Position numbers and translations under genes: made by a program. A model generated the notes under the pieces. The model was not told where the DNA came from, did no database searches, and saw only the letters and a list, made by a program, of their open reading frames with translations. Positions 6,441 through 64,000 of a stretch of 64,000 nt of DNA are shown one piece after another. How positions within the stretch are numbered: position 1 is the stretch's first letter; every line of letters starts with the position of its first letter. This DNA is from Zygnema cylindricum (lineage: Eukaryota > Streptophyta > Zygnematophyceae > Zygnematales > Zygnemataceae): assembly GCA_037447655.1 (NCBI GenBank), contig JBBHKE010001763.1:108961-172960 (forward strand), read 5' to 3'.

Positions 6441-8416
6441 CCAACCTAAATGAGTTAATCATCTTCATAGGAATTCAATCACTATTTTTTTTTGTTTCAT
6501 TACTCCAATCGCAGAGTACCTGAAAGCGAGACGGTGGTGGGTAGAAAGGGTGGCGCTACTCAAAGGGATAAGGGAGACTACTCTCATCTTATCTTCCGCG
6601 GGATTTGGAAAGAGGAGTGTGGCGGTAACGAAGGCGTTACCGGGAAGGAGAAGGAAAAAGTTACCATGGGTTGTCAAGGTTCACGAGGAACTAGTGGAAG
6701 AATTTTTCCGATTCCAAAAGGCGGGATTGAAAATGTCGACTATCATTGTGGGGAAAATGGCAAATCACATCATCTTCGATATGAAGAAAGAGGGTGCGCC
6801 TGAATTTTTCGACGAGAATTGTGAAGAGATCAAGCCAAAAATCAGTCGGCGTTGGATTCAACGCTTTTTTGAAAAGCATAGCATCGTCACCCGTGCTCAA
6901 AAAGGGAAACTACAACTAAGTCCGGAGAAGGAGGAGTAAATTGAAAGATCCGTGGCATATCACATGGGCGTACTAAAAAGGGGATTCCAATCAGGTATGC
7001 TTCATATTTCCATTCCATTTATTGCCTCTTGACATATTAAGTTTTGTATTTTGTTTCCCCTTTCATTGAACTTACTTGTGTTTTGTTTTCTATTGCGTTT
7101 CTCTATTTTGTTGGTGGATTATAGGTCTCTTTAACGAGTATTTGGTGGAGAACATGGACGAGACGCATTTCATTGTAAATATGGACAGCAAAAAGACATT
7201 AGGCTTTCGCGGCGACGAGGTTGTTAGATACGCGGACGTTGCGGGCGGCGGAGAGTCCATGACATTGATGGTACGACTCACGGGGGGTGTGAATGCCCGA
7301 ATAGAGGCTCCAATGTTAATATAAACCAACCGAGCTCGTAATTACCCAATAAAGGGCCTTCCCGACGATGTACCGGGTAAGTTTCATTAAATTTTAAATC
7401 CTTCGATGTATGTTCATCTCCCTTATAAACCACTAATCTTTACGCAATACTGTATATGAATACATATTTTGCCCTTTTTTATTGGTTCTTAATGCTCCCT
7501 CCTCGTCCTTTTCCTCGTCATTTAATATTTCTCCCTCTCCCTCCTTTTCCCTCCTTCATTAAATCCCCCTCACGTAATTCACCCCTTCTCCCTTTCCTTT
7601 TTTTTTTTTGTAGGAGTTTGCTACCGAACCGGCCTCAAAGGATGGAATGATAAAACCGTATTCCCGCACTAAAGAAGCAGCGCCGGAGGTGCGTAGCACG
7701 ACCTAGCTTTGGAGGCGCGATGAAGGAGCGGACAGCGCCGCAGGTGCGTAGCACCTCCAAGGATAGAAGAGCCGAGGTCTTACCAAGGAGACGGCGAAGG
7801 GCGTGAAAAAATAATATTCCTCGACAATTGTGGCGGTCACAACAATTCCGAGGAGTTAAACCAAGTCTTACTCGCCAAGAGGACTATACTACACTTCTTC
7901 CCTCCTTGCGCGACTCACTTTGTGCAACCTGCCGACTCCTTCGTCATTTCGAAAATTAAAGAGGTTTGGTCCCGAAAATGGGAGGATTGGAAAACGAACG
8001 GCATCGAGAAGCATGCGTGGTCCCAACCGAGTGGCAAGGGTTGGTCCAGGAAGCTTGTCGGGCCCGGGAAGGCTTTTTTCCTTACGCTGGCTCGCGATTC
8101 ACTTCGCGAAGTCAACGCAATGAAGGACAAGAATGGGATGGGTTACGCACGTAAAGCTATGATTCAGTACGGATTGTCATTAAAGGACGGGAAATGGGAG
8201 GAGAGCATTCTCACACCGGAGTTACAAATTATCATCATGAAATGGCGGTGCCATTTCGAAGGCGATGAGGTGCCAATTCCCTCTATAGTGGCACGAGATT
8301 TTGTCCGAGGCATTCAAGATGCCGACACTCGAAAGATGAATTTCGCGATGACACGGACGCTGAATGGGAGACCGAAGATTTTGAGTCGTTTCATAGAGAA
8401 GTGGTGTAGTGTGTGA

Positions 8417-26006: not shown

Positions 26007-26231
26007 TAGTGTTGGGTATCGGGTAGTTTCATATCGCGATAATTTCGATATTCGATATATCGAATATCGATCGAGCAGATTCCTCGATATATCGTACCGG
26101 GACCAACATAAATTATCGCGATATATATCGCAAAAATTGCATATCCGTACAGTCAGAGTACGGAAAACCGTACGAAAAAGAGTACGGAGAATCGTACGAA
26201 AAATCGTACGGATATTTTGCCCCCCCCCCCC
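26007..26231. mobile_element. hAT-like foldback MITE, truncated by assembly gap
   Basis: The sequence from TAGTGTTGGGTATCGGGTAG onward is nearly identical to the first 225 bp of the complete element at 31312-31723, up to its poly-C tract. It then meets ten Ns at 26232-26241. The C-rich, strongly folding centre of the element probably broke the assembly here. The DNA to the right of the gap is not the rest of the element. Confidence 0.75.
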
Positions 26232-29057: not shown

Positions 29058-32000
29058 CTATTGGTACGGACGGAAATATTTGTGAAGATCTTCAGGTCGA
29101 CACCGTTGCCCTGGTTCCAAAACCAAACGCAGAGCCACCCCTGGTGCCAGCCTCGTTCTAATTCTTGATGGATGCAAAATCCGAGCCAAAATTTCTACGC
29201 CATCCACCAGTCGTGGGCCCGGTCTACTAAAATATGAATGTTCACAAATGAACACTCGTCCCATTTGAACAGCCGGCAAGGACCAAAATCCTGGGAGATT
29301 TGCCACATACTTCACCTGAAGAAGAGGTAAGAGAAGAAGCGCGAGACACCCAATCAGTCAACTTCAAGACCCAAGCCACACACATCTAACACGAAATTGC
29401 AGGAAAATTGCATAGTTCACTTTCTTGAAACAAAAACTGTCGAACGAATTACGTGCCCAGCGGAAGCAAACAACTAAGTTCACCTTCTTGCGCAGGAAAA
29501 TTAAAAGTTGACCTTTAGGTGATCAATTCGGCCTTCAAGTTTTGAGCCCAAATAAAACCATTGAGGAAGTCAGTCTCACCTCCAATAGCGAGCGTTGTAG
29601 GCTGGACGAACAAGGCGTCAAAAGGAGAACCTCAGGTGCATAAGCTGTAACTCTCTCCCATGTCACTTTCTCTGCAGGACTGCCTGCCTCCTGCAAGCCG
29701 TCGATTCCTCCTGCCATAACTTTCATCTCGGGGAGCCAATGACCACCAATCACAGGCGGGTATAGACCTTCCAGAGAGAGCACTCTCTGACGAGGCTCCC
29801 CAGCTATCGAGCGTGCCACTTGTCGCAGCCTTTTCCGAAGCGCTTCCACTAATGAAAAGGCTCGGGCTGCGAGTCCTACTGCCTCCCCAATAGTAACAAT
29901 GGAATCCAATACCTCCGAAATCTGCACTCAAATCCCAATAAGGACATTGCATTAAGACCACAGAAATGCACTGCTGCTGTGGAGGCTGGAACCACAGTTT
30001 AGGAAACCAAATCCAGACCCTAACTCACAAGACTTTACTAGCTTTACTAGCTACTTTCAGATATTGTAATTTTGTGTTGGGTGATTGTCAACAACATCTG
30101 GGATACCCCTGTCTGAAGAACTCTTTCGTTAACAATTCTGTAAAAAAACACAGCTACCTCACCCAAGGACCTGTTCTGCATTAAATTGCATCCACGCCCC
30201 AACTCTCTTCTCTTTCGAACAACTGCCATTTACACATTATTTCCGTACTATGCTTCAAAGAGTACATTTCCAGGGCAAAAAAAAAAAAGTGCGCACCGTA
30301 TGCGGTCTAAGGACCACGACTTCCGTGTCAGGGCTGTCGATGAGGTCTGCCTGAGCCAAAGCTTTGGCCACGTCATGCTTATCTACATCACACCGGGCAC
30401 ACGTGTCCTGCTCCAGAAACCACCATGGTAGGTAAGAAACCGCAACATTTTCCTCTCAGCTTGCAGACCGCAACTTTTGTATTCAGGCTACCTAAGCTTC
30501 TCAAAATAATTAGTGGAGTGGACGCATCAACTTAACACGGGCTGGACTGGAATATGTGACTGTTTATACTATTGCTAGGCATTTCAAGTCTCTGATTTTA
30601 CTCCTTCCAACTAGTATCCCAAGTATTCAGAATGAACACAATTCCACCGACAAGTCCACTTCGAAAATCCACATAACATAGCACCGCTATTAGCTTTAAA
30701 GACTCACACCAAAAAAACTGCCAGAATTATAAATCAGGCTTTGTTGTCAACGGCATTTTTCGCGCAGGAATCTAGATCTCACCTGTGTAAAAACCAGGTC
30801 TGGCTGTATCATGCGCAGTAGGCCGGCATCTACCTCAAAAGCACTTTCCCCCCTTTCTTGTAATCGTTTCATCTGCCCTCACAATCATTTCAGCCATGTT
30901 CACAGCTTAAGAAGACAGTTAAGAAAAAAAATCTGCTACTAAAAGATGAAAAACAATGCCTATATGTTCATCACATATGTACTTCGGTATGAAATTCGAT
31001 TATCAATGATAATCACAAAACATCATTAATCCAGGGAAACGGGATAACTATCAAACTTTCGTGTGACTGATATCAAATTTGTATTCACTTAATCAGCTCA
31101 AATTCACAACTTGATCTCCAATTTTGATTTGGATTCACATTCCAAATTCCAAAATTCAATCTCCGTATAGCTCAGCAACAAGGTGATGTACATAATCTGC
31201 CTACACCAGCACACATGGATTAAGATCTCTACAGCCTATAAAAAATAACTCCTCAACACTGATGCAAAGAGGATACCGATTCAAAATCATGGTTTCCTCA
31301 AGCCTACACAATAGTGTTGGGTATCGGGTAATTTCATATCGCGATAATTTCGATATTCGATTTATCGAATATCGATCGAGCAGATTCCTCGATATATCGT
31401 ACCGGGACCAACATAAATTATCGCGATATATATCGCAAAAATTGCATATCCGTACAGTCAGAGTACGGAAAACCGTACGAAAAAGAGTACGGAGAATCGT
31501 ACGAAAAATCGTACGGATATTTTGCCCCCCCCCCCCCCCCAACTGAGCGCGGGGGGGGGGGGGGGTGGTTTGAAAAAAAATTGTAAAATTTTCATTTTCG
31601 ATATATCGGCAATATATCGCGATAATTTGAAATTCGATATATCGAAGCGATATATCGAATATCGGGTACATGAAATTCGATATATATCGAATATCGGCAA
31701 TGGGTCCTCGATACCCAACACTACACCGCCAATCGCTAGTAGCGTGTAGGTTTCATTAGCGTATACAAATAATTACCGTGGTGTACGCTATTTAAGAATT
31801 TGAAAATTTTGGAAAAAATCATACATTCTAATTGTTTGATTATGGTAATTTGGATCTTTGAAAAAAAAAATGTCGGTCGCAAACATGCTTACACTAATAT
31901 AAGTTTTCGTACAAAATCTGACAAATCGTACACACATCGTACATTCACACGGTCGAAACGCGGCTGTCGGACGAATATGTGCGAGCGGGATTTTTTACGA

Positions 32001-35000
32001 CCTGGTTTTTTTTCCTTTTTAGAACGCACATTCTCATGCGTCCGCGATTACTAAAACTAATTTATTGTAATTTTTAACTTAAAAAGGTACATTTATGTAC
32101 AGTCTGACAATGACCGTACACCACTCTATTTAAGAGACAACGTCCTGAATATAACCCTAAATAGAATAAAGAAAAAAATAGAATAAACTACGCTATTTGA
32201 GAATAAAACAAAAAAAAAGCGGGACGGGATTAGCGTACACAACGCTAATAGCGATTGGCGGTGTACTACACAACTGCATCTGAGTCACTAACATCAATTT
32301 GACCCTTCAAATGCAGGATAGAACTTAGCATAATAGGTCGTGCAATCAAATATACACAATTCCAAAAACATCATCCAATATCAATATAAAAGACGAGATC
32401 AGAAGGTTGACAGCGTCTGTGACATACCAATGCATCTACATCCCTACTTGACATTGTCGATGTGTCAATCTTGCTCCTGCTCACCTGTATTCACCCAAAA
32501 AACGCATATAAGAGCTCAGGTGTATCTCAATTGGCTGAAAATAATCATTTGAAGGTTTCCAACTCTCAACTTACAGTTCTTGTGAACCGACGGCACCATG
32601 GGTTTGGTGTCAACTACTCGGCAGAACAAGAAATCCAACAAACAGTATAAGACAAAGCCACTGCCAACAACACGAGTGAAAGACTTCTGAGTCAGGTTCA
32701 GAGGACATCCAAAAATTGCAACAATTGACACAACGGCAACTGCTGACGCCCTGCTTGCTCACCACATGACGGTTCTTATTGACATTCTCCGGGTAATCGC
32801 AGAGATTGGAAACACCCACCAAGCGCTCACCCACTCCTGTATCTCCCTTTGCATATTAGTTCCTTTTTCTCAATCATATTTGTTGTGAATCAGAATGGAC
32901 TTATTAAACAATGAACAAGAGAAAAGATAATTATCACCACGTGGTTGACCAGTGGCTGCTTGTAAAAACCACTCATCCAGGAAAGCGTGATTTCTATTCT
33001 GCTATATCCATTCCGCTTTGCAGAGTTAACATGCTTCAAAGGCAATGCTAATTCACCAACGTAGACCATAGAGTCACTCAAAGAAGCTAGAAGAGGTTAT
33101 CGGAACTTTTGACTGAAATTGTATTCACGCTGTAAGCAGTCAAGTGAGATTCGAAGGGAACAAAGTCTGGGACAATGCTTCGAAGAAACCCATGATCCTT
33201 CAGCCAAATAGGTAAGAATTGAAAAAGTAAAGAACTCACCGAGTTCCATAAGAATCTCTGTCGCCGATGGAAGCATTGACACAATCCTCACAGGAACTGG
33301 GGGGTTTTCCAATGATGCCATGAGAAGCACTCTACCATTGCTGAAGTTCCCATGCGTCCTGTTTACATTCCCCGAAAATGCACTGACAGAGTTGTCCTCC
33401 ATACTAGCTGTTCCTCCATTTAATGTGGGGCCATATCTGGCATCTCCTTGACCTCTAGACTTATTAACATTTCCCCACTCTTCAGGTGAGGAAGGAGGGC
33501 CCTTCCAGGCAGACCCCTCCCATGTCTCCCCGACATCCGACGAGGAGGGTGTATCTAAATCGTCAGACAATGTACGCCCATGCTCCAATCCATTCCTGTA
33601 CCTCGCCTCATCCTTACTGCCGCTATCCCCAATCCTAAAGCTAACGCCCTCTCTTCCATTAGGAGGTTTTCCAAATTCCCTTGGTGGTGTGCCAAACATG
33701 CGCTCACTCTCCTCCCCTATAGTCCGATAGCTTGAGCCATGATGTCCATTTGCTTTAGGACGTTCTCTCCCTGTTCCCCCATTGCTCTGCACATCCTCAT
33801 CTGACGAGGTTTTGCTATCAGGACTGCCCCAAACTCCTGAACCCGCTGCCCTTCCATCCGGACTCTCTGCCCTTCCACTGATCGAACTTCTCTTGCCTCT
33901 TCTCCGATTTTGAAGGGATCCCCAATACTCAGACATAGATCGACGGATCCCTTTAGCACCTGCAAGATTCGAGGATTTTTTCCCTGGTAGAGGGTCCATG
34001 GAATCAGTTCGTGCAAAAAGAGGTTTTCCAAGCTTCTCAGCCTTTTCTTGACTATTCCAGTCCAATGAATTGCTCCCGGCCACACGTTCGCCTACAGGCG
34101 AAGCAGATCCCCGAAACTCCCACCTATTACTCTCACTTCGCCTTCTGGCATCCCATGACAGTGCAGGCATGGAAAATGAAGGTGGACCCACAGGTAGTCT
34201 CCATATGTCCCTTTCCTCTTCATCTGAACCGTGGCTCCACGGATCCCCGAGTGCTTCTGTAACTGCAGCCGCAGCAGCAGCACCGGCAGCAGCAGCTGCC
34301 ATTGGTCCAGAATCTGCTACAGCCGAAGCTGATGCCGCAGCCACGGCCGCAGCTTTCAAGGTGTCATCTCTGCAGGACGCCCAACCATCTAGAGGGAATC
34401 AAAATCTGCCACATGGTGGCTCTCGTACCCAAGAGTATGGATCAGGATCATGGACAATGGACAAATGCTTCCACATCAAAGGCTAATTCAGGAAGTAGTA
34501 GCTCTCCTACCAAAAAATGTGGATCCGAACCAGGCACGAATGCCTCGTGACGGCAGGTTTCCGTAACCATGAAAAGGAAAAATCTACACTTCCCTAGATC
34601 TACAATGACTAGACTAAGGCCATAAAAATATGTGGAACTGATGGGTCAAACATGATAACAAACTTTCATGATGCAAACCTCAAACAAAGGCAGCCTGTAG
34701 ACGACTGCAAAAACATATGAAACTGACGAGTCAAACAAAATAACCATCTTTCGTGATTCAAGCTCAAATGGAAGCAGAGTAAAGCACATGCCTGCATCGT
34801 GCCACAAGAGCATGTGCAGCCGAAGGATTGGACCCAAAGTGAAGGTGCACATAGGAAGCGAGAACAGCACCAGACATGTAACCACCCTCCTCTCGATTGG
34901 CATCGGTGCCAGCACACTGCATCTGAAACCTGCACAATATCCAAGGTCAGTACCTTCTGTCAACTTATGCAAGTCTTTAGTCCATCCCATGACTTGCGGC

Positions 35001-38000
35001 ATGGAGTGCGCAAATGGAAGGTCACTAAAGGATGTAGGTTCATAATAGCTGCATTGTAAGCCATACATGATTTTGGTTGTAGTTCTACACATGAGACTGA
35101 CAGCCAGTCATTCTACAACACGTAAAAGTTTTAGCTGTTTCCACAATAATTATGCTATTTTCCCAATAAACTTGAGCACTTGATCCCACCACACTTACAC
35201 ACAAACACACAATCAACTTGGTCCAGAGAAGAAAGCGGCCTTTTGAGCCCATCAAAACCACGTAAAAGCTGGCTTTTCTTAGCTCAACATCACAACATCT
35301 AAAGAACAGCCATCAAGATTGTGCTTGGTATTCACCCTGTCTCTGGAAGACCACCCATTTGATCTCCGGAATCCCCTGGAGGAACCACTTCGCTAAAGTG
35401 ATAAAGTTGCCCTCGAATCTCCCCCACCTCAGGAGGGAAGATGCTGTTGTTTTCTTTTGGCATTACCTGCACCACGAAGCCCGTCACCACATGTTATTAC
35501 AGGACTGTATTGCTTCAACAAGCTACAAGTGACCAAATCACCCGAGTCCTCCCCAACTGACTAAGAATTACAGGAGCAAACTGATTATGCACCTCTTGAA
35601 AAAACCAGATTCACTTCAAAAGGGAAAAAATGGACCCTTCCTCGGCCATATTAACATCCAACAAACTTTCACACCATGTAGCCTCACAGTCAGCCTTGTG
35701 AAATGATACGCCTTTTACTTGTCATGTGCACACATTAAAGCCCCTCTGTCTAACGAAACCGCCTTATTATGACCTCTGCTTATTGCTTGAGAATGTGCAG
35801 TACTTAGGCTGAAGCGGGCACACTCCAGAAATTATAGAAAAAATTACATGAGAGCCTCTGACCTATCGTCCGAGAGAAGTCACACTCAAATGCTCAAAGG
35901 TCGTGAGACTCCAGGTTTAAGTGGTGCAAGTTAACATTGACTCCTATGGATTTGCAGTGACTTTGACATGGACAACCAAGTTAAAACTGTACAGAAAATG
36001 CGCCATCAAAGGGAATCCAATGCTGCAATAACTAACCGTAACATAGGCGAGCTTCATCTTGGAGACCATACGCGTCCAGAAGGGAAACACTCCACACATT
36101 GCATATCGCTGACCATCTCTTGCCTGTCACCCAAGAGGCCATGGAATGTTACAAATCACAAAAGTGATTTGACAATATAAAATGCAGATGGTGGAAAAAA
36201 ATACCCAAGGAATTTCCCACTGTCCTGGATTCGACTGCCTTTCCTCAACAAAGAGAGCCATTGAGAATCCAATGCTTTGACAGGCTTCATGGCCACGGTT
36301 CAAAGGAAGAACCCAGGGTGAACCGTCAAAAGACTACCTGTTTGAGTCATCACAAGAGCAGATCAAAATAAACCAAGAAATACGTACACAAACAGAACAA
36401 AAAAAACTTAGGAAATATTTCCACTCTCTCCAGCATACAAAGCCATCACCAGCGTGGTTGAAAATATACCTCAACTCCTTGTGACAGGTACATAAGACCG
36501 CCACACTCGCCATATATAATCCCACCAGCTGCTGCAAATGCACGCATTGCATAAAGCATACGAGTATTTTCTGTAAGTTGTTTTCCATGGAGCTCTGGAT
36601 AACCTCCTCCAAGATAAATTGCATCCAAGCGTGGGGGAAGTCCATCATACATAGGAGAGAAGAAGACTAGTTCTGCTCCGGCATCTGGCGACAGCCCATG
36701 CCAATCCCAAATTATCAACACTTCCCATTAACCTGGCTGCCAAGTGTTTGACATAATACTACACCATTTTCCTACCCAATGTCTGATAATAATACTACAC
36801 AGTTTTGCTACCCATATCAACCGCTAATTACATATACAGTGACAGAATGACGATTCTTAGCCCTCGCTTTTCACGCCAGCACACAGGCTGTCACCAAAAA
36901 CCCTCTCCGAAACAGCTGATCCTACCACAATTCCCTGTTTCACTCCCAACCCATCCCCTTTTTCTCCATAAGAACAAATTTCTTGATTAGGTTGCATTGC
37001 AGCTTACACTTCCAGGTGTTGCTAGTTAAGCTCACTTATTAACCTAGAGGCATTAAGCCAATATTGTCACTGTACAGGTAAAAGGGATTCTCCTATTTTG
37101 TACGCACCTCTAAGCAAAGCCAAGTTCTCGTGATAGTAGAAACAAAAAGCCGAATCTCGTGCGACTCCAATTCGTACCAACTTCCCCATTCCCAAGGGCA
37201 ATGGAACTCCCGCCCCTTCTCCCATCTCCTCTTCCTCCCCAGAACCTTCCCCCTCGTCATGATCATCTTCAGTCCCTCCAGAGCCCAAAAGTTTACGAGA
37301 CATAGATTGTTGCAAAGATTTGACCTCCCCTGCTTGCTCCAATATGGAATTCAGATCAATGCACTCCTCCATAAGATCTGCCAGCTTGTCTATAAGGCCA
37401 GCCGGCATGTTATCTTCTCCAGGCATGCACAATCCTAGGTGCCTCTCAGGAACTTCTAAACCCGCTGTTTTGGGTAAACCTCCTAAAACCTTTGCTGCAA
37501 CATTGCTGCCTGTGACCGCGTCTTGTAACCATTTCAAATGCACCATGCTACCAACCTGCATATAAGTCACAGGGACACAGGCAGACGTCACAGACTGACA
37601 TGGATTGCTCCAGAACAATGGCAGAAACCGAGAGCCTTTGCCGTTACTCTAACTTTCTAGGGTTGTGCACATAGTCTCCATGGGGTAAAACGAATAAAAT
37701 GAGGTATTATTCACTTCACCAAACTGATACCCAGGTTTGATAGTTGGCAAAGTCTAAAACCAAAGAATGTCAAATGCAGAGCTAGAGATGCCATCATCAT
37801 TCATGCATTGGCCTTTAGGGGATCCAAAACACCGATAAGGAGTTGTAACAAAAAAAAATGATAGAGGCTTGAAATTGCCTGGCAGAAGGAACATTCTTGT
37901 GGGCAACAAGAAGATCCTTCTGCTTCAAATTGTGTCTGATTGTAGAGTATGTCCTTTGTTCATGGGGTATCTATTATGATTTTCAACACTAGTCATGACC

Positions 38001-40362
38001 AGCTTTATCTTCCCAAAAGAAGTTACACATAAGAGAAAGAAATGCAGGAGCAGCATTAAATTTCAGGCAGAAAATTGATAACTGACATTTCGATTAAGGA
38101 ATCGGCAAGCTTGTGATTCACTTGATAGACAAATTACAGTGTGCCAAAGACACTGAAGAAATAGTGTCGTTTTAACATTACTGTAGAGTATCCTCTTAGC
38201 TTTAATGGACCTGGGATCCTTACCTTGTTAAAAATGACACCTGCAATCTGGAGCTCAGGATCGAACGAGGTGTACCCATGCACCATGGCTGCAGCACTGC
38301 GAGCCATGGCTCCAGCATCCAGCACAAGGATGACAGGAGCTCCAAGTATTTTTGCCATTTCAGCAGTCGAGCCTATCTCAGAGACCCCGTCACGCCCATC
38401 AAAGAGACCCATGACACCTTCTACTATCGCGAGGTCCGTATCCTCAGAGTTGCGCAAGAAACACTGCAGATTCACCTCCCTGTTTCCATCCATGCCAAAA
38501 CATCTTGTCACTGTGTAAGTACAGAAGAAAATGCGTGTGTTAACCCATTTATGATTCCCAGTGATTTTCAGCTCTTTTAAACACTTGCAGAGAGCAATGC
38601 TTTGATACGGCAACACAGCTCTTGGCCAGCACAGTACTAGGAACATTGACGCAGTTGCACAAATTATTGCATATATATAGAATATGGAAGCTCAAAGGCA
38701 GAGAAAAATCCAAGCTGCCAGCTACAATTGACTCGAGAACCTCAAATAGAGGCAATGACGTTGCACTTGCCTCCTCAAAGGGAAAATGCAAGCAAATGCT
38801 ATGCATGAGCTTGTTCAGACTGGATACAGAATGCATAACAAGAAGGTGAACTGACAAGTGCCACCCCTATACTACTTATTTGACATTGGCTTTGGTCTGT
38901 TAATCTCAAGCAGTTAAGCAATTCATAACACTAGCATTGAGTAGAATGCATGCTGTAATTGCAGCTTGGCCTTCCAATTCAGGAGAAGGAAAAACAAGAG
39001 GCACAATTCCTGCGACAACTTAAACAATCGCCGCCACTCGTCTATTTGGCATGGACTGTCGTGTGAAAGGACCAAGCTGGAAAAAAGTACTGCACCTTGA
39101 CAACATCCACCCGTCTAGGTTGAGAGATTCTCTCCCAGAAGCAGCTTTATGGTGCATAGGATCCAGAAAATCTGCCCCGAAAAGCCACAAAAGACCGCGT
39201 GAAGAGAAGCAAAGGCCACTACAGTTACGTAGTCAACCCTAACTTCAACATTGACTAGCATAATCATTAGACACGGACTTAAACACATTGTGAAATTAGG
39301 CATTGTACAGCCATACCCTAGCCATGGTAGTAGGGCTCGTCTCACAGGTTCTTCAATTGACACTATATGAGTTAACAAAAAAATACAGTTTACTTTAATA
39401 GCTTACTAGCTGCACCCTGAACCCCTAAATATCACCCTCTTGAGTGTGCTCTAGCTCCCCGAATGGAATCTCTTATGGCTGAATTGTTTAGAGTGCTCAG
39501 TACTGACTCTGACAAATTGTCCTTTCCAGGCAGAGCAAGTTGCGAAATAGAAGCCCGTTACCTCCTCGACCCTCTGGCTATCCTGCCAAGCTTTTCTAGA
39601 AGTAAACAACTAAACTATGTGCAAACTTCCAGCCTGTAAAGCTCACCTGGACCAACTTTGAAAGGCTGCACGCTTAAACCACGGCGGCGAAAAGCTGCCA
39701 TCAATCCAATGGCGACACATGTCTTTCCAACACCGCTGTGAGTACCCCCAATCACGATGCTCTTCATTGGACTAAATGCTTCTTGCTTTACTGTTGGTCA
39801 CTGGCTGGCCTCCAGGCAACCCCGGCTGGCCCTCCCTCGCTTCAGCCGTCAGCTGGAAGGGACGCTCCTGATGGAGCCATGAGAGGGCCTGGCAAAGCAA
39901 AAGAGGCCCCTAGCTGCTCTCGTTCTTCAGCTCTCCTGGCCTTCTCTCTGCAGCATGCAAACTGCATCTTCTGCCAAAGCTGTACGGATAATATCTTCAG
40001 CCTGAAAGAGACAAGCTTCAGCAAAAAACAGTCTTGTCTTGCAAGGCACAATTTGATACTGGAGTTACTGAGTACAGTTTGGTACACTCTATAACAGTAC
40101 AAGACAGTACAATTCAGTACAATACAGTTCTGTACTGAAACTCCTTGTAGCAATACGAGAATCCTCGATCGGTCACGTGGTTATATACAAAATACAGTGC
40201 ACCTGCACGCAAATTTGCCCGTGAGATTGTGAACTCCAACGAACGGGTAACGGAGGAGCAATTACCCGTCGTCTTTCGAGGGCCCGGGCTCGTAGGCCTA
40301 GTATTCGTAAGCATGGCAATCGCAAACGTGGCATGCGATTCATTGCTTCCTCGTACGGCCAT
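29058..40362 (-). CDS. CobB/CbiA-type cobyrinate a,c-diamide synthase fused to BtuF-like B12-binding domain
   Basis: Sixteen minus-strand exons are inferred: 40203-40362, 39647-39790, 39096-39171, 38224-38503, 37108-37555, 36470-36684, 36037-36123, 35336-35466, 34792-34929, 33240-34369, 32763-32836, 32428-32484, 30783-30872, 30297-30407, 29580-29921 and 29058-29315 (TAG). Every junction keeps phase, giving 1,246 residues. Layout: possible targeting peptide (1-60), P-loop amidase domain (about 62-300), class I glutaminase domain (about 350-558), disordered linker (560-915), BtuF-like domain (921-1246). CobB/CbiA enzymes use ATP and glutamine to amidate side chains a and c of cobyrinate or hydrogenobyrinate; BtuF-type domains bind B12 or ferric chelates. 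All junctions are GT-AG except the one joining the two halves, which needs a GC donor. If it is not used, there are two adjacent genes. Both halves appear intact. Confidence 0.8.
31312..31723. mobile_element. 412-bp hAT-like foldback MITE in an intron of the CobB-BtuF gene
   Basis: The ends are TAGTGTTGGGTATCG and CGATACCCAACACTA. The interior is dominated by ATCGATATATCG-type inverted repeats and a central C-tract/G-tract stem. The 8-bp flank CTACACAA (31304-31311) recurs at 32266-32273, beyond the adjacent TA MITE, so the target duplication is intact once that second insertion is removed. Related copies lie at 26007-26231 and 51558-51900. Confidence 0.85.
31724..32263. mobile_element. 540-bp TA-flanked MITE derived from the 9.5 kb transposon
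   Basis: Inverted ends CACCGCCAATCGCTAGTAGC and GCTAATAGCGATTGGCGGTG are flanked by TA (31722-31723 and 32264-32265). The left half matches the left end of the 2106-11597 element and the right half matches its right end, so this is an internal deletion derivative. Its target TA is the last dinucleotide of the hAT-like element at 31312-31723. Confidence 0.85.
33240..34369 (-). other. linker exon between the CobB and BtuF halves
   Basis: One 1,130-bp exon begins with an Ala-rich stretch ([17 protein letters not shown], then more poly-Ala), continues about 330 residues rich in Ser, Gly, Arg, Glu and Asp with no domain, and ends with the first strand and helix of the BtuF domain ([20 protein letters not shown]). 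It is probably disordered. The first in-frame ATG is at 34300-34302 ([14 protein letters not shown]), a possible start for a separate BtuF gene. Conversely the frame is open up to a good acceptor (GTCCTGCAG, ending 34370), and a CobB reading without this splice would stop at 34764. Confidence 0.65.
34792..39790 (-). other. CobB/CbiA half of the fusion: ATPase plus glutaminase domains
   Basis: Residues run in the order of bacterial CobB/CbiA. P-loop [10 protein letters not shown] (39647-39790); [20 protein letters not shown] (39096-39171); [14 protein letters not shown] and GVIFNKVGS across the 38224/37555 junction; [33 protein letters not shown] across 37108/36684. Then the glutaminase: [22 protein letters not shown] with nucleophile Cys430, [22 protein letters not shown] with His493, and [20 protein letters not shown]. 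The usual RGHEFHYS motif has Gln in place of its first His; the second is kept. Exon 37108-37555 adds an acidic insertion ([20 protein letters not shown]) between the two domains. CfbB, which acts on Ni-sirohydrochlorin, belongs to the same family, so the substrate cannot be fixed from sequence. Confidence 0.85.
40203..40362 (-). other. candidate first exon with organelle-targeting-like peptide
   Basis: From the ATG at 40360-40362 the frame reads [18 protein letters not shown] and continues Thr/Ser/Arg-rich with no acidic run. It ends GTGCAG|GTGCAC in phase 1. This fits exactly with an acceptor ending CAACAG at 39791, two bases before [15 protein letters not shown]. Composition is like a plastid or mitochondrial transit peptide. 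The acceptor lacks a strong pyrimidine tract, so the alternative is a start at Met 39765-39767 directly before the P-loop domain. An upstream in-frame ATG (40479) would lengthen the peptide. Confidence 0.4.
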
Positions 40363-45186: not shown

Positions 45187-45850
<664 letters not shown>

Positions 45851-56246: not shown

Positions 56247-57294
56247 TGTAGAAATTAATGGTCCATTATTGAGTATTTTCTAGGTCTAAATAGAAAGAAG
56301 CCGTGGCAGTCTACCTCTAACTTCTCTCTCCAACTCTTAAACTTGTCGGAGTCACTGAGAAATTGGAGAGGGAGCTAGAGCCATGGCTACCTAGGCTATC
56401 CAGAGGTTTACGGGAAATATATATTAGTTAGGGGTCTTTTAACTAAAAGGTATGTGCGGGCCACAGGATTTGATCCTGGTACCTGCCGGATGGCAAACTG
56501 CCGATAGCCGGTAGTCTTAGCCATTAACTCTAGAACTAGTGTTACGTACTATATAGTTCGATAATTAATTAAACATTATCAGTTTGGATAATTCATTTAA
56601 CTGTAACTATTTACGAGATACATAGATCCAGTAATATAACAGTACGGATAACGGTACGGATAAAAAACCAATACCGCGCATTTATTTCTTTAATGAAACG
56701 AATATCGCGCATGTATTTATTACGGCTACGATTAAATGTGAATTTAATCGGACGTCGAAATTAACGCCGAGATCGCGGAAGAGGATTTCGGCGGTTTGTG
56801 GTCATCGCCACATCGGATGACACGTGGCGGAGTTACATTGGATCGCGGCATCTCCGAGGATTACAGGAGCGAATCCGGACATACCACGTGTCGACATTTA
56901 GGCCATGTCGTACAGTGTCCGTACAGAAAGTACACCGGCAGCTGTACTTTTGTGTACGGAACTGTAATCTGATTGGTTCCGTACATCAGTAGATAGAGTG
57001 TGTGAGAGAGATAGGACTTAGAAAAAATTAGGAGATAGGACCCTCTCTCCTAGAGAGCTTCTGTACAAAAGGTCAACTTTGACCCTCCATAACTTACTAC
57101 CCAGGGGAGCAAATTCAGAGATTCTTTTTGCTATCGACTCAGGGGAGTTTTGTCTTCACAGAGGTGAAGTTAATGAGAGTTTTTGTCTGCCAAGGTGGCA
57201 GTTATTTTTGCTGAAACACAAAGGGGTCAGGGTTATCCTAGAGGCTTCTTGGAAGCTGTCCACTTTAAGGACTTATGGAGGTCTCACAGTTTCA
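56247..57294 (+). repeat. 5' LTR of the inner copia element
   Basis: The LTR bears the promoter and start of transcription of the element, though I do not recognise a definite TATA box. It contains AGAGAGCTTCTGTACAAAAG and direct landmarks shared with both solo LTRs. On the minus strand it has TGGCTAAGAC and a T-arm-like AGGATCAAATCCT near 56470-56525. The sequence after it is AGTTATGGGCCCACCC, not the initiator-tRNA primer site TGGTATCAGAGC common in copia elements. Confidence 0.9.
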
Positions 57295-60200
57295 AGTTAT
57301 GGGCCCACCCTCTAGGGTACCAATCTTTAATGGAACTGGCTTCATATACTGGGAAAGTATGATGATAGGAGCTCTATGCGAAAAAAGGTTTTGGGGGATA
57401 GTGAGTGGACGGTTGGGGCGTCCATCAAGTCTTGGAATTCCTCCAGGGTTTGGAGGAAGCAGATTCACCAGAAAAGAGGATCCACCTTCAACGGAGGAAA
57501 CAAAAGAAGGAGAGGTGGTGAACAAAGGAAAGGAGAAGGAGGTGACCACACCAATAACAACTGGTTCGACATTCATGTCACCTATTCCGAGGAACGAGAA
57601 AATGATACTGAAACCTGGGACTTCAACAATATGGCGGCAAAGCACTTCATCCTACACCATCTCATTTAAGGACTTGCATGTCAACATTTGCAGGTAGAAA
57701 AGGCATCCGATCTTTGGATGGCTCTAATAGAGATGTACCGAAGTGGTACAATTCAGCAACAACAGTTGGCTGATCAAAAAGTTAAAGAGTATGTATACAA
57801 AGGGGGGAAGATGTTGGATTTTTGCAATGAGCTTGCTACAAACTTCATGGAGCTAGAGAGTGCGGGAAAAGATTTTAGTGAAAAAGAAAAGATTAACTGT
57901 TTACTGATGAAGTTACCCGATGAGTTCGAGAACATAGTCAACCGTGTGCAAGACTTGCCAGACTCAAGGTGGATATGGAACTCAGTGGTAGGGATGATTC
58001 TCGTTCGGGAGAATACGATTGAGATCCGAAGGGGAGGAAAGAGTGGCCAAGCTTTGGCAACTGCGACTGATTGGAGGAACAAGGAGTCTTGAAAACCGGT
58101 CGGAAACTATGGGGGGAGGGAGCAGAAAAATCAGACCGACGAGTTGGGACCAAGGGCTCCCAAAGGTTTATGTCATTTTTGTAAGAAACTTGGGCATTAT
58201 ATGGTAGAGTGCACCAAGCTAACCGAGCTTCGGTTAAAGGAGGGGCAGACCGGTGGTACCGCGAGAGGAAAGAAAAAGGCCCTTGTGACACAGGTATATG
58301 AGGGGGAATCCGAGGGAGAGGACAATGAGCTCTTTTTGGATGTGGAGTTGGAGGCGAAAAACGAGGTTGAAATTCCACGAAGGCAGAATTATGCTTATGG
58401 TGGATTGAAAGGTGAAGCAGGCTGGATTATAGATTCAAGTGCCTGCATGCACATGTGTAACGATAGGCACCTGTTCACTAAGATAAGAAATATTCCCACC
58501 GTAGAGATAGAGTACGGGGATGGGAGGATAGTCACCACTACTCTTGTAGGATCAGTAGATTTGAAAGTGTTAGTAGAAGGAAAGACATCTATAGTAACAT
58601 TCTCCGATGTATTGTTTATTCCGGAGCTGAACAAAAACCTCATCTCTACATCTGTATTAGATGATAAGGATTTTTTTACTAGCATTAGGGAAGGAGTCTT
58701 TACTGCTAGTTTTGAGGAGGATGTCTATTTCATTGCTGAGAAAGGTAGCCATGCGATGTTTAGGCTGGTTTTAAATAATGAAAAGAAGAAACTTTATTAT
58801 GCTGGTGTTCATGATATTATGATGTGGCATAAGAGGCTTGGGCATGTGAATCTAGATAAGTTAAGAGAGATGTTAAAGATGGGAGTGGTGGAAGGGATTC
58901 AGTTCAGTGAGAGTGATAATATAAGTGATTGTAGTGGATGTGCTCAAGGTAAAACACACAGATTACCCTTTCCTAAAACAACCACCTATAAGGGAGAAAA
59001 AATTCTAGATCTAGTACACACAGATATTTGGGGACCAGCTAAAGTGCCCTCACCGGGGGGGAAGAGATTTATGATGACTATCACTGATGATTGGTCTCGG
59101 TATTCTCGAGTGTATTTTTTGAAAAACAAGTCCGAAGCTCACGATGGTTTTAGACAATATAAAGCATGGAGCGAAAAACTTCATGAAACTCCAATCAAGA
59201 GAATAAGGAGTGACACTAGTGGAGAGTATACTTCTAACCAGTTTGAGGATGTTTTGAGGGAAGATGGGGTCCAACACCAAAAGACAGTTCCAGAAAACCC
59301 GGAACAGAATGTGGTAGCTGAAAGGTTAAATAGAACACTAAGTGATAGTGCTAGAAGTATGTTGTCAGATAAGAAGATAGGAAAAAGGTTTTGGGCAGAA
59401 GCAATGAACTCTGCTAATTACCTCAAAAATAGAGTTCTTACTTCAGCTATAAAAGATCAAACACCTTATGAGAGATAGACAGGCCGGAAACCAGACTTTT
59501 CTCACTTAAAGGTTTTCGGCAGTCAAGTATTCAGTCTAAATACAGATTCGTCTAATTGGAAGGTATATCCTAAAGGAAAACCGGGATACTTATTAGGATA
59601 TGATGAGGATGTTAAAGGATATAGAGTTTATGATATAAAAAGGGAAGATATAATCTTAGTAAAGCATCTAGTAGTTATGGATGAAGGAAAGTCTGTGGAT
59701 CCCTTCAAATATACAAAGTCAGTAAAAATCAGATGTGAGTCAGAAAATTCTGATGACTTTGAGCTTCCTAACTATCCAAGTTTTAGAGAACATGACATTC
59801 TTGCAGATACAAATCAGACCGAAAAAGACTCGGCTGTGGAAACTCCAGTGACAACTCTACCCGAAGCGGAAGACGTGGTGGAAATTGATTCGGAATCAAG
59901 GGATAGGGGAGAAGCCGAATTTGTTCGAAAGGATCCACGAGAACCATCTATTCCGACCTCAGATTTTGAGGGGGGAAGGAGAAGTAGCAAAAGACTAGAA
60001 GAAAAAGAGGTTAATAACAAGGTAACTAAACTATCTCATCAAGATGAACCTCAAACTTATGGAGAGGCGATGACTTGTACAGAAAGAAACTGGTGGAAGA
60101 CAGCCATCAATGAGGAGATGGCCTCAATTATGGCAGCTGATACTTGGGAGCTGGTGGATTGTCCACCTAACCGAAAACCAATCGGCTGTAAGTGGGTTTT

Positions 60201-61632
60201 TCAAATTAAAACTCAACCCAGATAACACAATCGAGCGCTATAAGGCTCGACTAGTAGCAAAGGGATTTACACAAAAGGAGGGAATTGACTACGAGGAAAC
60301 CTTTGCCTCGGTGGTCAGATTTCCCTCTGTCAGCATACGTCTCAGCCTGACAGCAGCGGAAGACATGGAAGTGCACCAGATGAACATCAAGACAGCCTTT
60401 TTGCATGGAGAATTGGAAAAGGAGATCTTCATGCGACAACCTGAAGGTTTTGTGGAGGAAGGAGGGGAGAGTAAGGTATGTCGGCTGATTAAATATTTTT
60501 ATGGTTTGAAACAGGCAACCCGACAGTGGAATAACAAGCTTGATGAGTTTCTTACCGGTCTGGGATATATCGGGATCAGCTCAGATCACTCAATCTATTT
60601 TTTCGAAGATGAGGAAGGTTTTATATTTATTGCAATTTATGTTGATGATTTGCTTGTTTTAAGTAAATCAATGGAAAAAATTATTAAACTGAAAACCGAT
60701 CTTAAGGGGAGATTTGAAATGAATAATATGGGGGAAGCAAATTATATTTTGGGAATTCAAGTAGAGAGAGACCGAAAAAGAAAAATTATAAGATTGACTC
60801 AAAAGGAAGCAATAGGGAACACGCTTGAAAATTTTCAAATGGATAAAGCTAATAGTTGTACAACTCCAATGGAGTTGAAGAAAGGAAGTGAGGGGAGTGA
60901 GGAAGAAGGAGTCATAGTCTTAGACGAGAAATTATCTCCTGAAGAAAAGAATTTCATGTCGACTATTCCTTACATGCAAGTAGTGGGAAGTCTAATCTAT
61001 TTTATGAATTTTACCCGGCCGGATTTAGCTGCAACTGTAGGAGTGTTGAGTAGAAGTCTAAATGCTCCCACTAAGAGGGATTGGGAGGCAGCTAAGAGAG
61101 TCCTTAGATATTTGATAGGAACTAGGGATCTATGGTTGCATTTGGGTGGGGAGAATACTGACATCACTACTTCGAGTGATGCTAGTTATGGTGATGCTTC
61201 GATGAGGAGATGTACTTCTAGATATGTATTATATGTGGGTGATGGGGCTTGCTGTTGGAGTAGCAAACAGCAAAAGTTATTGCTCAGTCCACCATGGAGG
61301 CTGAGTATATGGCCTCTTGCTCAGCTGTAAAAGAATTGATGTGGGTCAAATCTTTGCTTGGTGAGCTTGGTCACCTTAAGAGTGGTGTGCAGAAAATATT
61401 TTGTGATAATCAGGCAGCAATCGCTATTTCTGCCAATCCTAAACATCATTTTAAAGCCAAACACATGGACATCAGACTCAACTTTGTTAGAGAGAAAGTA
61501 GAAAACAAAATAATCAGTTTAGAGTACCAACCAGATAGTGAGATGGTAGCAGATATGATGACCAAACCCGTGCCTTCCCCTAAGATAATTTTCTGCAGGG
61601 AGAAGTGTGGTCTGAAATTAAAGATTGACTAG
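57295..61632 (+). pseudogene. copia gag-pol polyprotein, disrupted
   Basis: Gag starts near 57300 (PSRVPIFNGTGFIYWESMMI) and shifts frame near 57600. One frame then runs to 60225 with in-frame stops at 57667, 58090 and 59476. Landmarks in order: zinc knuckle CHFCKKLGHYMVEC (about 58171-58211), protease site WIIDSSACMHMC with Ser for the usual Gly of DSGA (about 58425-58460), and integrase HHCC region from WHKRLGHVN (58827). Next come the integrase catalytic segments HTDIWGP, RSDTSGEY and PENPEQNVVAERLNRT. Reverse transcriptase follows in another frame (60200-61290) with YVDDLLVLSK (60638), and RNase H returns to the first frame (SDASYGD, then MEAEYMASCSAVKELMWV from 61294). Ends at TAG 61630-61632. 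Confidence 0.9.
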
Positions 61633-61645
61633 AAAATAAAGGGAG

Positions 61646-62694
61646 TGTAGAAATTAATGGTCCATTATTAAGTATTTTCTAGGTCTAAATAGAAAGAAGC
61701 CGAGGCAGTCTACCTCTAACTTCTCTCTCCAACTCTCAAACTTGTTGAAGTCAGTGAGAAATTGGAGAGGGAGCTAGAGCCATAGCTACATAGGCTATCC
61801 AGAGGTTTACGGGAAATACATATTAGTTAGGGGTTTTTTAACTAAAAGGTATGTGCCGGCCACAGGATTTGATCCTGGTACCTGCCGGCTGGCAATCTGC
61901 CGATAGCCGGTAGTCTTAGCCGTTAACTCTAGAACTAGTGTTACGTACTATATAGTTCGATAATTAATTAAACATTATCAGTTTCCATAATTCATTTAAC
62001 TGTAACTTTTTACGGGATACATTGATCCAGTAATATAACAGTACGGATTACGGTACGGATAAGAAACTAATACCGCGTATTTATTTCTTTAATGAAACGA
62101 ATATCGCGAATGTATTTATTAGGGCTACGAATAAATGTGAATTTAATCAAACGGCCGGAATTAACGCCGAGATCCCGGAAGAGAATTTCGACGGTTTGTG
62201 GTCATCGCCACATCGGATGACACGTGGCGGAGTAACATTGGATCGCGACATCTCGGAGGATTACACGAGCGAATCCGGACCTACCATGTGTCAACATTTA
62301 GGCCATGTGGTACAGTGTCCGTACAGAAAGTACACCGGCAGTTGTACTTTTGTGTACGGAACTGTAATCTGATTGGTTCCGTACATCAGTAGATAGAGTC
62401 TATGAGAGAGATAGGACTTAGAAAAAATTAGGAGATAGGACCCTCTCTCCTAGAGAGCTTTTGTACAAAATGTCAACTTTGACCCTCCATAACTAACTGC
62501 TCAAAGGAGCAAATTCAGAGATTAGTTTTGCTATCAACTCAGGGGAGTCTTATCTTCACAAGGGTGAAGTTGGTTAGAGTTTTTGTCTACCAGGGTGGCA
62601 GTTATTTTTGCTGAAACAGAAAGGGGTCATGGTAATCCTAAAGGCTTCTTGGAAGCTGTCCACTCTGAGGACTTATGGAGGTCTCACAGTTTCA
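61646..62694 (+). repeat. 3' LTR of the inner copia element
   Basis: It is nearly identical to 56247-57294, with scattered substitutions. It starts TGTAGAAATTAATGGTCCAT after a purine tract and ends CACAGTTTCA, followed by the duplicated CTTTT. It would supply the polyadenylation region. The substitutions between the two LTRs mean the insertion is not recent. Confidence 0.9.
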
Positions 62695-64000
62695 CTTTTG
62701 TGTATGGAATTGCATTTTGATTGGCTCTGTACATCAGTAGATAGAGTCTGTGAGAAAGATAGGACTTAGAAAAATTACGAGATAGGACCCTCTCTCCCAG
62801 AGAGCTTCTGTACAAAAGGTCAACTTTGTCCCTTCATAACTTACTGCTCAGGGGAGCAAATCAGAGATTCTTTTTGCTATCGACTCAGGGGAGTCTTGCC
62901 TTCATAGGGGTGAAGTTGGTCAAAGTTATTGTCTGCCAAGGTAGTAGTTTTTTTTGCTGAAACACAAAGGGGTCAGGGTTATGCTAGAGGCTTCTTAGAC
63001 GCTGTCCACTCTGAGGACTTATAGAGGTCTCAAAGTTTTAGGTTATGGGCCCACCCTCTAGGGTACCAATCTTTAATGGAACGGGCGTCATATACTAGGA
63101 AAGTATGATGATAGGAGCTCTATGCGAAAAAAGGTTTTGGGGGATAGTGAGTGGACGGTTGGGGAGTCCATCAAGTCTTGGAATTCCTCCAGGGTTTGGA
63201 GGAAGCAAATTCACCAAGAAAGAGGATCCACCTTCAATGGAGGAAACAAAAGAAGGAGAGGTGGTGGACAAAGGAAAGGAGAAGGAGGCGATCACACCAA
63301 TCAACTGGTTCTGCATTCATGTCACCTATTCTGAGGAAAGAGGAAAATGATTCTCAAACCTGGGACTTGAACAATATGGCGGCAAAGCACTTCATCCTAC
63401 GCCATCTCACTCAAGCACTTTTATGTCCTCATTTGCAGGTAGAAAGGGCATCCGATCATTGGATGCCTCTCATAGAGATGTACCGAAGTGGTACGATTCA
63501 ACAACAACAGTTGGCTGATCAAAAAGTTAAGGAGTATGTATACAAAGGGGGGAAGATGTTGGATTTGTGCAATGAGCTTGCTACAATCTTCATGGAGCTA
63601 GAGAGTGCGGGAAAAGATTTTAGTGAAAAAGAAAAGGTTAACTATTTACTGATGAGTTCGAGAACATAGTCAACCGTGTGCAGGACTTGCCGGACTCAAG
63701 GTAGATATAGAACTCAGTGGTAGGGATGATTCTCGTTCGAGAGAATACGATTGAGATCCGAAGGGGAGGAAAGAGTGGCCAAGCCTTGGCAACTGCGACC
63801 CATTGGAGGAACAAGGAGTCCCGAAAACCGGTCGGAAACTATGGGGGGAGGGAGCAGAAAAATCAGACCGACGAGTTCGGACCAAGGGCTCCCAAAGGTT
63901 TGTGTCATTTTTGTAAGAAACCTGGGCACTATATGGCTGAGTGCACTAAGCTAACTGAGCTTCGGTTAAAGGAGGGGCAGATCGGTGGTACCCCGAGAGG
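62695..64000 (+). mobile_element. outer copia element: rest of 5' LTR and gag, runs off window
   Basis: From 62700 the LTR continues (GTGTATGGAATTGCATTTTG) to about 63040, ending CAAAGTTTTA instead of TTCA. The internal region follows with GGTTATGGGCCCACCC, as in the inner element. Gag-like frames (GALCEKRFWGIVSGRLG near 63115; MYRSGTIQQQQLADQKVKEY near 63478; CHFCKKPGHYMAEC near 63904) are broken by frameshifts near 63350 and 63655. A short internal deletion also removes a few residues relative to the inner copy near 63650. The remainder lies beyond 64000. Confidence 0.85.

Follow-up and report, generated by a model that had tools for sequence, protein, structure and literature searches.

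The 64,000-nt window analyzed here (forward-strand positions 108,961 to 172,960 of Zygnema cylindricum contig JBBHKE010001763.1, within which coordinates are counted unless another contig is named) carries on its minus strand a gene that joins a CobB/CbiA amidase, a linker of ~360 residues and a COG0614 (Fe/B12-type) binding domain, in that order. The exons were joined by hand splicing with phase checks. Fifteen exons from 39767 to 29058 (Table 1) encode a protein of 1185 residues, with a modelled start codon at 39767, phases in agreement throughout and no internal stop. Thirteen of the 14 introns are GT-AG, and the remaining one, 34791-34370, is GC-AG. A preliminary description of this DNA had placed the landmark motifs of both protein families in one eukaryotic gene. 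All of these motifs were found on the minus strand in the order it gave, and the splice model bears out a single gene carrying both domains. The sixteen exons it proposed are phase-consistent, as it said, but number 15 in the model. An extra exon candidate at 36337-36205 was dropped, since it disrupts the frame and the CobB homology.

Table 1. Exons of the fusion gene and the intron joining its CobB half to the linker (window coordinates).
Feature	Position	Strand	Content
Exon 1	39647..39767	-	start codon, P-loop
Exon 2	39096..39171	-	contains NLDGWML
Exon 3	38224..38503	-	contains GSTAEMAK
Exon 4	37108..37555	-	CbiA domain end, acidic insert, glutaminase domain start
Exon 5	36470..36684	-	GGGYPE; glutaminase nucleophile Cys in GECGGLMYL
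Exon 6	36037..36123	-	splice model
Exon 7	35336..35466	-	splice model
Exon 8	34792..34929	-	glutaminase His; 3' end at GC donor CAG/GCATGT
GC-AG intron, CobB half to linker	34370..34791	-	takes out in-frame stop 34766-34764
Exon 9	33240..34369	-	linker (then low-complexity sequence) and binding-domain start
Exon 10	32763..32836	-	splice model
Exon 11	32428..32484	-	splice model
Exon 12	30783..30872	-	PDLVFTQ
Exon 13	30297..30407	-	DTCARCD, completing conserved TQDxCxxC motif
Exon 14	29580..29921	-	GGHWLPE, PCSS
Exon 15	29058..29315	-	ends LHP, stop codon

A second genomic copy lies on contig C1110 (12849-24629) and is 96-98.6% identical to window 40671-28001. It retains all 15 exons, the splice sites and the frame, including the GC donor (CAG/GCACGT). 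The copies differ at 23 of 3558 coding bases, with 17 synonymous and 6 non-synonymous changes; in the linker 5 differences are synonymous and 2 non-synonymous. The non-synonymous rate (dN) is 0.0018 and the synonymous rate (dS) 0.0217, and the resulting dN/dS of about 0.085 shows that the gene is under purifying selection. In the C1110 copy, which may be the other haplotype, intron 11 is shorter by about 895 bp (the part at window 31490-32384 is missing). A clean transposon insertion was ruled out as the source of this difference, because part of the repeat is present in both copies. Two A+T-rich palindromic repeats, related to each other, occupy 26027-26230, where the repeat extends into unknown bases, and 31204-31752. 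Both contain a tandem unit of 24 bp, AGAGTACGGAAAACCGTACGAAAA, the first at 26155-26212 and the second at 31460-31517.

Homologues and descent

The whole-protein search scored 7993 candidates sharing most words with the query, and 956 passed; the counts of listed homologues below rest on the best 120 of these 956. Three of the 120 (P0111, P0112 and P0117) are bacterial-type CobB-CbiC fusions and were counted as bacterial. Among the matches listed, the CobB-binder fusion was found in streptophytes, chlorophytes, a haptophyte, oomycetes, dinoflagellates and Triparma, and the proteins with both domains that the preliminary description had proposed to seek in streptophyte and chlorophyte proteomes thus exist. 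The top matches with all three Pfam domains include Marchantia, Riccia, Spirogloea, Physcomitrium, Chlorokybus, Myrmecia and Diphasiastrum; lower down come more chlorophytes as well as Pavlova, oomycetes, Triparma and others. We take certain gene-name prefixes to denote Spirogloea, Chlorokybus, Mesotaenium and Tetraselmis. Selaginella, Mesotaenium, Prorocentrum and Polarella gave no Pfam call for the binding domain, yet the region aligns, in Mesotaenium over a short stretch only. Among the best 120 of 956 matches, many of them nameless, none bears a name that marks it as a bacterial CobB-binder fusion. Oomycete members have extra Kelch and DUF5522-type parts after the binding domain (in P0036 this order was read from the sequence). 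Such longer fusions, with Kelch repeats and DUF5522 (PF17653), were seen in oomycete, dinoflagellate and metagenome entries.

Separate trees were built for the two halves. In the CobB tree (38 eukaryotic and 47 bacterial sequences) the eukaryotes lie on one side of a branch with a Shimodaira-Hasegawa-like approximate likelihood ratio test (SH-aLRT) value of 99, and in the binding-domain tree (34 eukaryotic and 50 bacterial) on one side of a branch with a value of 98. Spirogloea is the nearest sequence or its sister in both trees, with Chara, Mesotaenium and Closterium next in the CobB tree. These placements mark the window as nuclear DNA from a streptophyte alga whose nearest neighbours are zygnematophytes. 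The separate trees proposed earlier as a check for a shared donor give one eukaryotic clade per half; no donor group can be named, since the bacterial sequences were chosen as the nearest matches to the Zygnema protein.

A further tree took in DsrN. Of 118 genomes from the phylum that includes Nitrospira moscoviensis, 46 scored above the cut-off for dsrA, and CobB was searched in 27 of those 46. Nine CobB homologues within 10 kb of dsrA (7 within 4 kb, 2 at about 9-10 kb) were taken as the DsrN set. With these 9 as outgroup, a tree of 54 sequences places eukaryotic CobB apart from DsrN (separating branch 100/100) and nested in bacterial CobB, in a clade of 29 sequences that includes two named cyanobacteria (100/98). 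A published phylogeny also describes DsrN as distinct from bacterial CbiA/CobB (PMC10504309). From the names, the cyanobacteria and the nearby CbiC fusions, we infer that the bacterial proteins around eukaryotic CobB serve cobalamin.

The joint between the CobB half and the linker depends on a GC donor. If the GC-AG intron stayed unspliced, the CobB frame would meet the TGA at 34766-34764, 26 bases past the donor, and the locus could be read as two adjacent genes, with CobB ending at this stop and the binding protein starting independently. Removal of the intron is supported by the linker (residues 503 to about 868, of low complexity) and by the second copy, which retains the GC donor. The start of the linker past the joint is matched in 7 of the 117 homologues examined, all from land plants (two species of Marchantia, two of Riccia, Physcomitrium, Ceratodon and Selaginella), and in these models the linker runs directly on from the end of CobB. 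Fusions in several eukaryote groups also argue against two genes, and we regard that reading as very unlikely. Bacterial contamination or a pseudogene might be suspected from the close bacterial relatives of both halves. It is hardly credible for a gene with 14 introns and an open frame of 1185 residues, with two copies differing at a dN/dS of about 0.085, and with both halves placed among streptophytes in the trees. The introns, the purifying selection and the tree placement thus agree with the preliminary description, which had argued against contamination.

Features of the amidase and binding domains

The amidase half scores 460.3 bits against the NCBIfam equivalog for CobB (cobyrinate a,c-diamide synthase), with a cut-off of 254, and 106.7 and 65.3 bits against Pfam GATase_3 and CbiA. 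The score for CfbB, the Ni-sirohydrochlorin amidase, is 378.4 bits, below the cut-off of 560. The Zygnema protein has the P-loop Lys, GPDFxDP, the VEG/FDG acids, and the GATase Cys and His; all 12 tabulated CobB positions that are invariant across 116 bacterial sequences are present. It shares both domains, the motifs and the active-site residues with bacterial CobB/CbiA (NF002204, TIGR00379), inside which the eukaryotic clade is nested, but differs in being fused to a binding domain and in occurring in a type of organism for which corrin-ring synthesis is not known. DsrN and CfbB belong to the same amidase superfamily; DsrN forms a separate clade, and the CfbB cut-off is not reached. A sequence search at E 0.001 returned no solved CobB-like structure. 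Position 103, after LFDG, is Arg or Lys in 78 of 117 eukaryotic sequences versus Ser or Tyr in 101 of 116 bacterial ones, with Arg in 4 of the 116 (two bacterial sequences outside the tabulated top six). This residue swap is a possible specificity change.

The binding half scores 54.2 bits against Pfam Peripla_BP_2 and has the PF01497/COG0614 binding-protein fold. It scores 32.9 bits against BtuF (PRK03379), far from the cut-off of 234, and so falls outside the family of E. coli BtuF, a periplasmic protein that is not known to have the four-Cys set described below. The domain is internal to a fusion that starts at the CobB core, and by eye no periplasmic signal peptide precedes it. Eighteen bacterial relatives aligned with the Zygnema domain share 41-51% identity with it. 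Ten of them begin with the domain's first strand, 3 have up to about 11 extra residues, 2 have longer extensions, and 3 are models beginning inside the domain. Going by these start sites alone, the bacterial kin look cytosolic. The preliminary description had pointed to a clash between cytoplasmic corrin synthesis and periplasmic uptake. This clash is weakened, because 13 of the 18 relatives start at or near the domain and cobalamin genes adjoin in some genomes.

Nine of 18 tabulated positions (four Cys, TQD, one Trp and one Gly) are identical in 50 of 50 bacterial sequences. The same four Cys occur in bacterial COG0614 proteins named 'cobalamin-binding protein' that have no evident signal peptide (Chloroflexota, Nitrospirota, Streptomyces and others); these stand alone, whereas the Zygnema counterpart is fused. 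The nine positions are intact in Zygnema, Spirogloea, Chlorokybus, Myrmecia, Trebouxia, Tetraselmis and the three tabulated oomycetes. Erosion is seen in Marchantia, Riccia, Physcomitrium, Ceratodon, Diphasiastrum and several trebouxiophytes; it is partial in Selaginella, affects Pavlova as well and touches one position in Chloropicon. As Pavlova uses B12 (PMC4850488), the pattern does not run strictly parallel to METH.

The neighbourhoods of 80 bacterial binding genes were inspected with marker queries taken from those same 80 loci. A cob gene is nearby in 9, a PP-loop ATPase in 8, any sought marker in 27 and none in 53. Neighbours carry the NCBIfam names CobU, CobT, CobS, PduO, CobD, CobQ and CobB. 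The cobB gene itself is nearby in only 3 of the 80, one of them archaeal and on the opposite strand; CobB scores above the cut-off in 16 of 25 genomes of the loci examined for neighbours. Chloroflexota, the bulk of the nearest bacterial matches, show almost no cobalamin context. In five loci (L037, L043, L051, L052 and L059) the binding gene is beside or near a PP-loop ATPase, a member of another amide-forming family; the L043 protein is distantly like Dph6, below the Dph6 cut-off. By analogy, this pairing echoes the eukaryotic fusion of amidase and binder.

A linked loss of the glutaminase Cys and the four-Cys set of the binding domain was considered and rejected. The count covers 97 sequences including Zygnema, after removal of 20 listed matches because of gaps and of 4 that lack a binding domain. 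Both features are kept in 73, the nucleophile alone in 15, the four Cys alone in 1 and neither in 8, a raw association with a Fisher p of 2.6e-5. On the tree of these sequences the nucleophile changes 6 times, and of 6 independent pairs 1.7 agree, 0.3 disagree and 3.9 show no difference. Linked loss is therefore not claimed, as it is not significant on the tree.

Host, compartment and probable role

Searches of the host assembly (352.8 Mb, 2689 contigs) located METH on two contigs, with a frame and a G+C content of 42% consistent with a native gene, and an intron-split methylmalonyl-CoA mutase. Given both enzymes, the host very likely uses B12. No CobS match was obtained in the host genome search, from which a gene in short exons could escape. 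To our knowledge, eukaryotes import B12 and do not build its ring. An organelle, the site suggested in the preliminary description, is unlikely, because the protein begins at the CobB core and 77 of the 96 eukaryotic sequences with a readable P-loop Lys have 20 or fewer extra N-terminal residues (19 have more than 20), so that in most of them a transit peptide would not fit.

The explanation that we favour, with confidence about evenly balanced, is one nuclear gene for a conserved eukaryotic fusion of a CobB amidase, a linker and a cytosolic COG0614 binder that would act in corrinoid salvage or repair. In this explanation the protein would handle corrinoids in the cytosol, probably as an ATP- and glutamine-dependent amidase that salvages or repairs them and carries a binding module of its own; a corrinoid or another tetrapyrrole, the ligand proposed earlier, is likely. 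The binding domain would capture a corrinoid arriving in the cytosol. The CobB domain, using ATP and glutamine, would then convert the free a/c acetate side chains to amides in corrinoids that are incomplete or have been hydrolysed, and the tether would hand the ligand between the two sites and then on to METH or the mutase.

Among land plants, METH was reported from hornworts only (PMC11439496), and the gene persists, its motifs eroded, in the liverworts, mosses and lycophytes listed. In METH-less land plants erosion affects the binding motif and in some cases the glutaminase Cys as well, and the ancestral role may therefore be relaxed or changed there. We propose tentatively that an ancient eukaryotic cytosolic tethered binder-amidase, older than streptophyte diversification, re-amidated scavenged or damaged corrinoids and was redirected to another tetrapyrrole in the land plants that lost METH.

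The changes at the glutaminase nucleophile speak for a rival reading. The Cys is replaced in 15 of the 120 listed sequences, and G, S or A takes its place in P0002, P0004, P0010, P0011, P0061 and P0067, two of which are unnamed; by genus the substitutes are A in Selaginella, S in Diphasiastrum and G in Riccia, with the adjacent motifs intact. Amidation may thus be dispensable in some lineages, and the fusion could be a corrinoid chaperone or sensor, in which both domains bind the corrinoid (and ATP) and amidation is vestigial. This is possible but doubtful, given that the Cys is present in Zygnema and 105 of the 120 (102 of 117 without the three bacterial-type fusions), and that the Zygnema protein keeps every invariant CobB position. 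Alternatively, an amidase of siroheme or sirohydrochlorin, like DsrN or CfbB, might have been recruited for a plant tetrapyrrole. Published work regards DsrN, which is homologous to CbiA/CobB, as an enzyme that amidates siroheme (PMC10504309), and the gene persists in the listed liverworts, mosses and lycophytes, with METH reported among land plants from hornworts only (PMC11439496). We consider such a recruitment unlikely, as the CobB half lies outside the 9 DsrN sequences and below the CfbB cut-off, and the bacterial kin of its partner domain adjoin cob genes in some genomes.

No description of the fusion protein was found in the open literature (subscription papers and preprints lay outside the search). 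The only partial mention is of a predicted protein resembling CobB, from the transcriptome of a haptophyte (PMC4057078). The survey of Dorrell et al. 2024 covers 13 B12 proteins, and cobyrin, CobB and BtuF do not occur in its main text (PMC11439496). The same text describes CBA1, an algal B12 uptake protein that is eukaryotic and B12-related like the fusion but is set apart by description, many CBA1 homologues being said to bear signal peptides (PMC11439496). The earlier statement that no eukaryotic enzyme of this layout had been described holds for the literature searched; the layout is not unique, as several eukaryote groups have it. The domains are known and the joined protein is already in databases. 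Its presence in several eukaryote groups suggests that some may modify B12-like molecules beyond importing them. Kept from algae to lycophytes, the fusion offers a testable enzyme for the eukaryotic B12 map, and raises the question of why METH-less plants retain it.

Other features of the window

Long frames at 57269-61327 and 7724-8413 resemble, by eye, what is left of a Copia-type gag-pol and of a DDE transposase, respectively. A (TATC)n array of 160 copies occupies 45197-45850, and a 346-bp unit is present in two tandem copies at 62339-63038.
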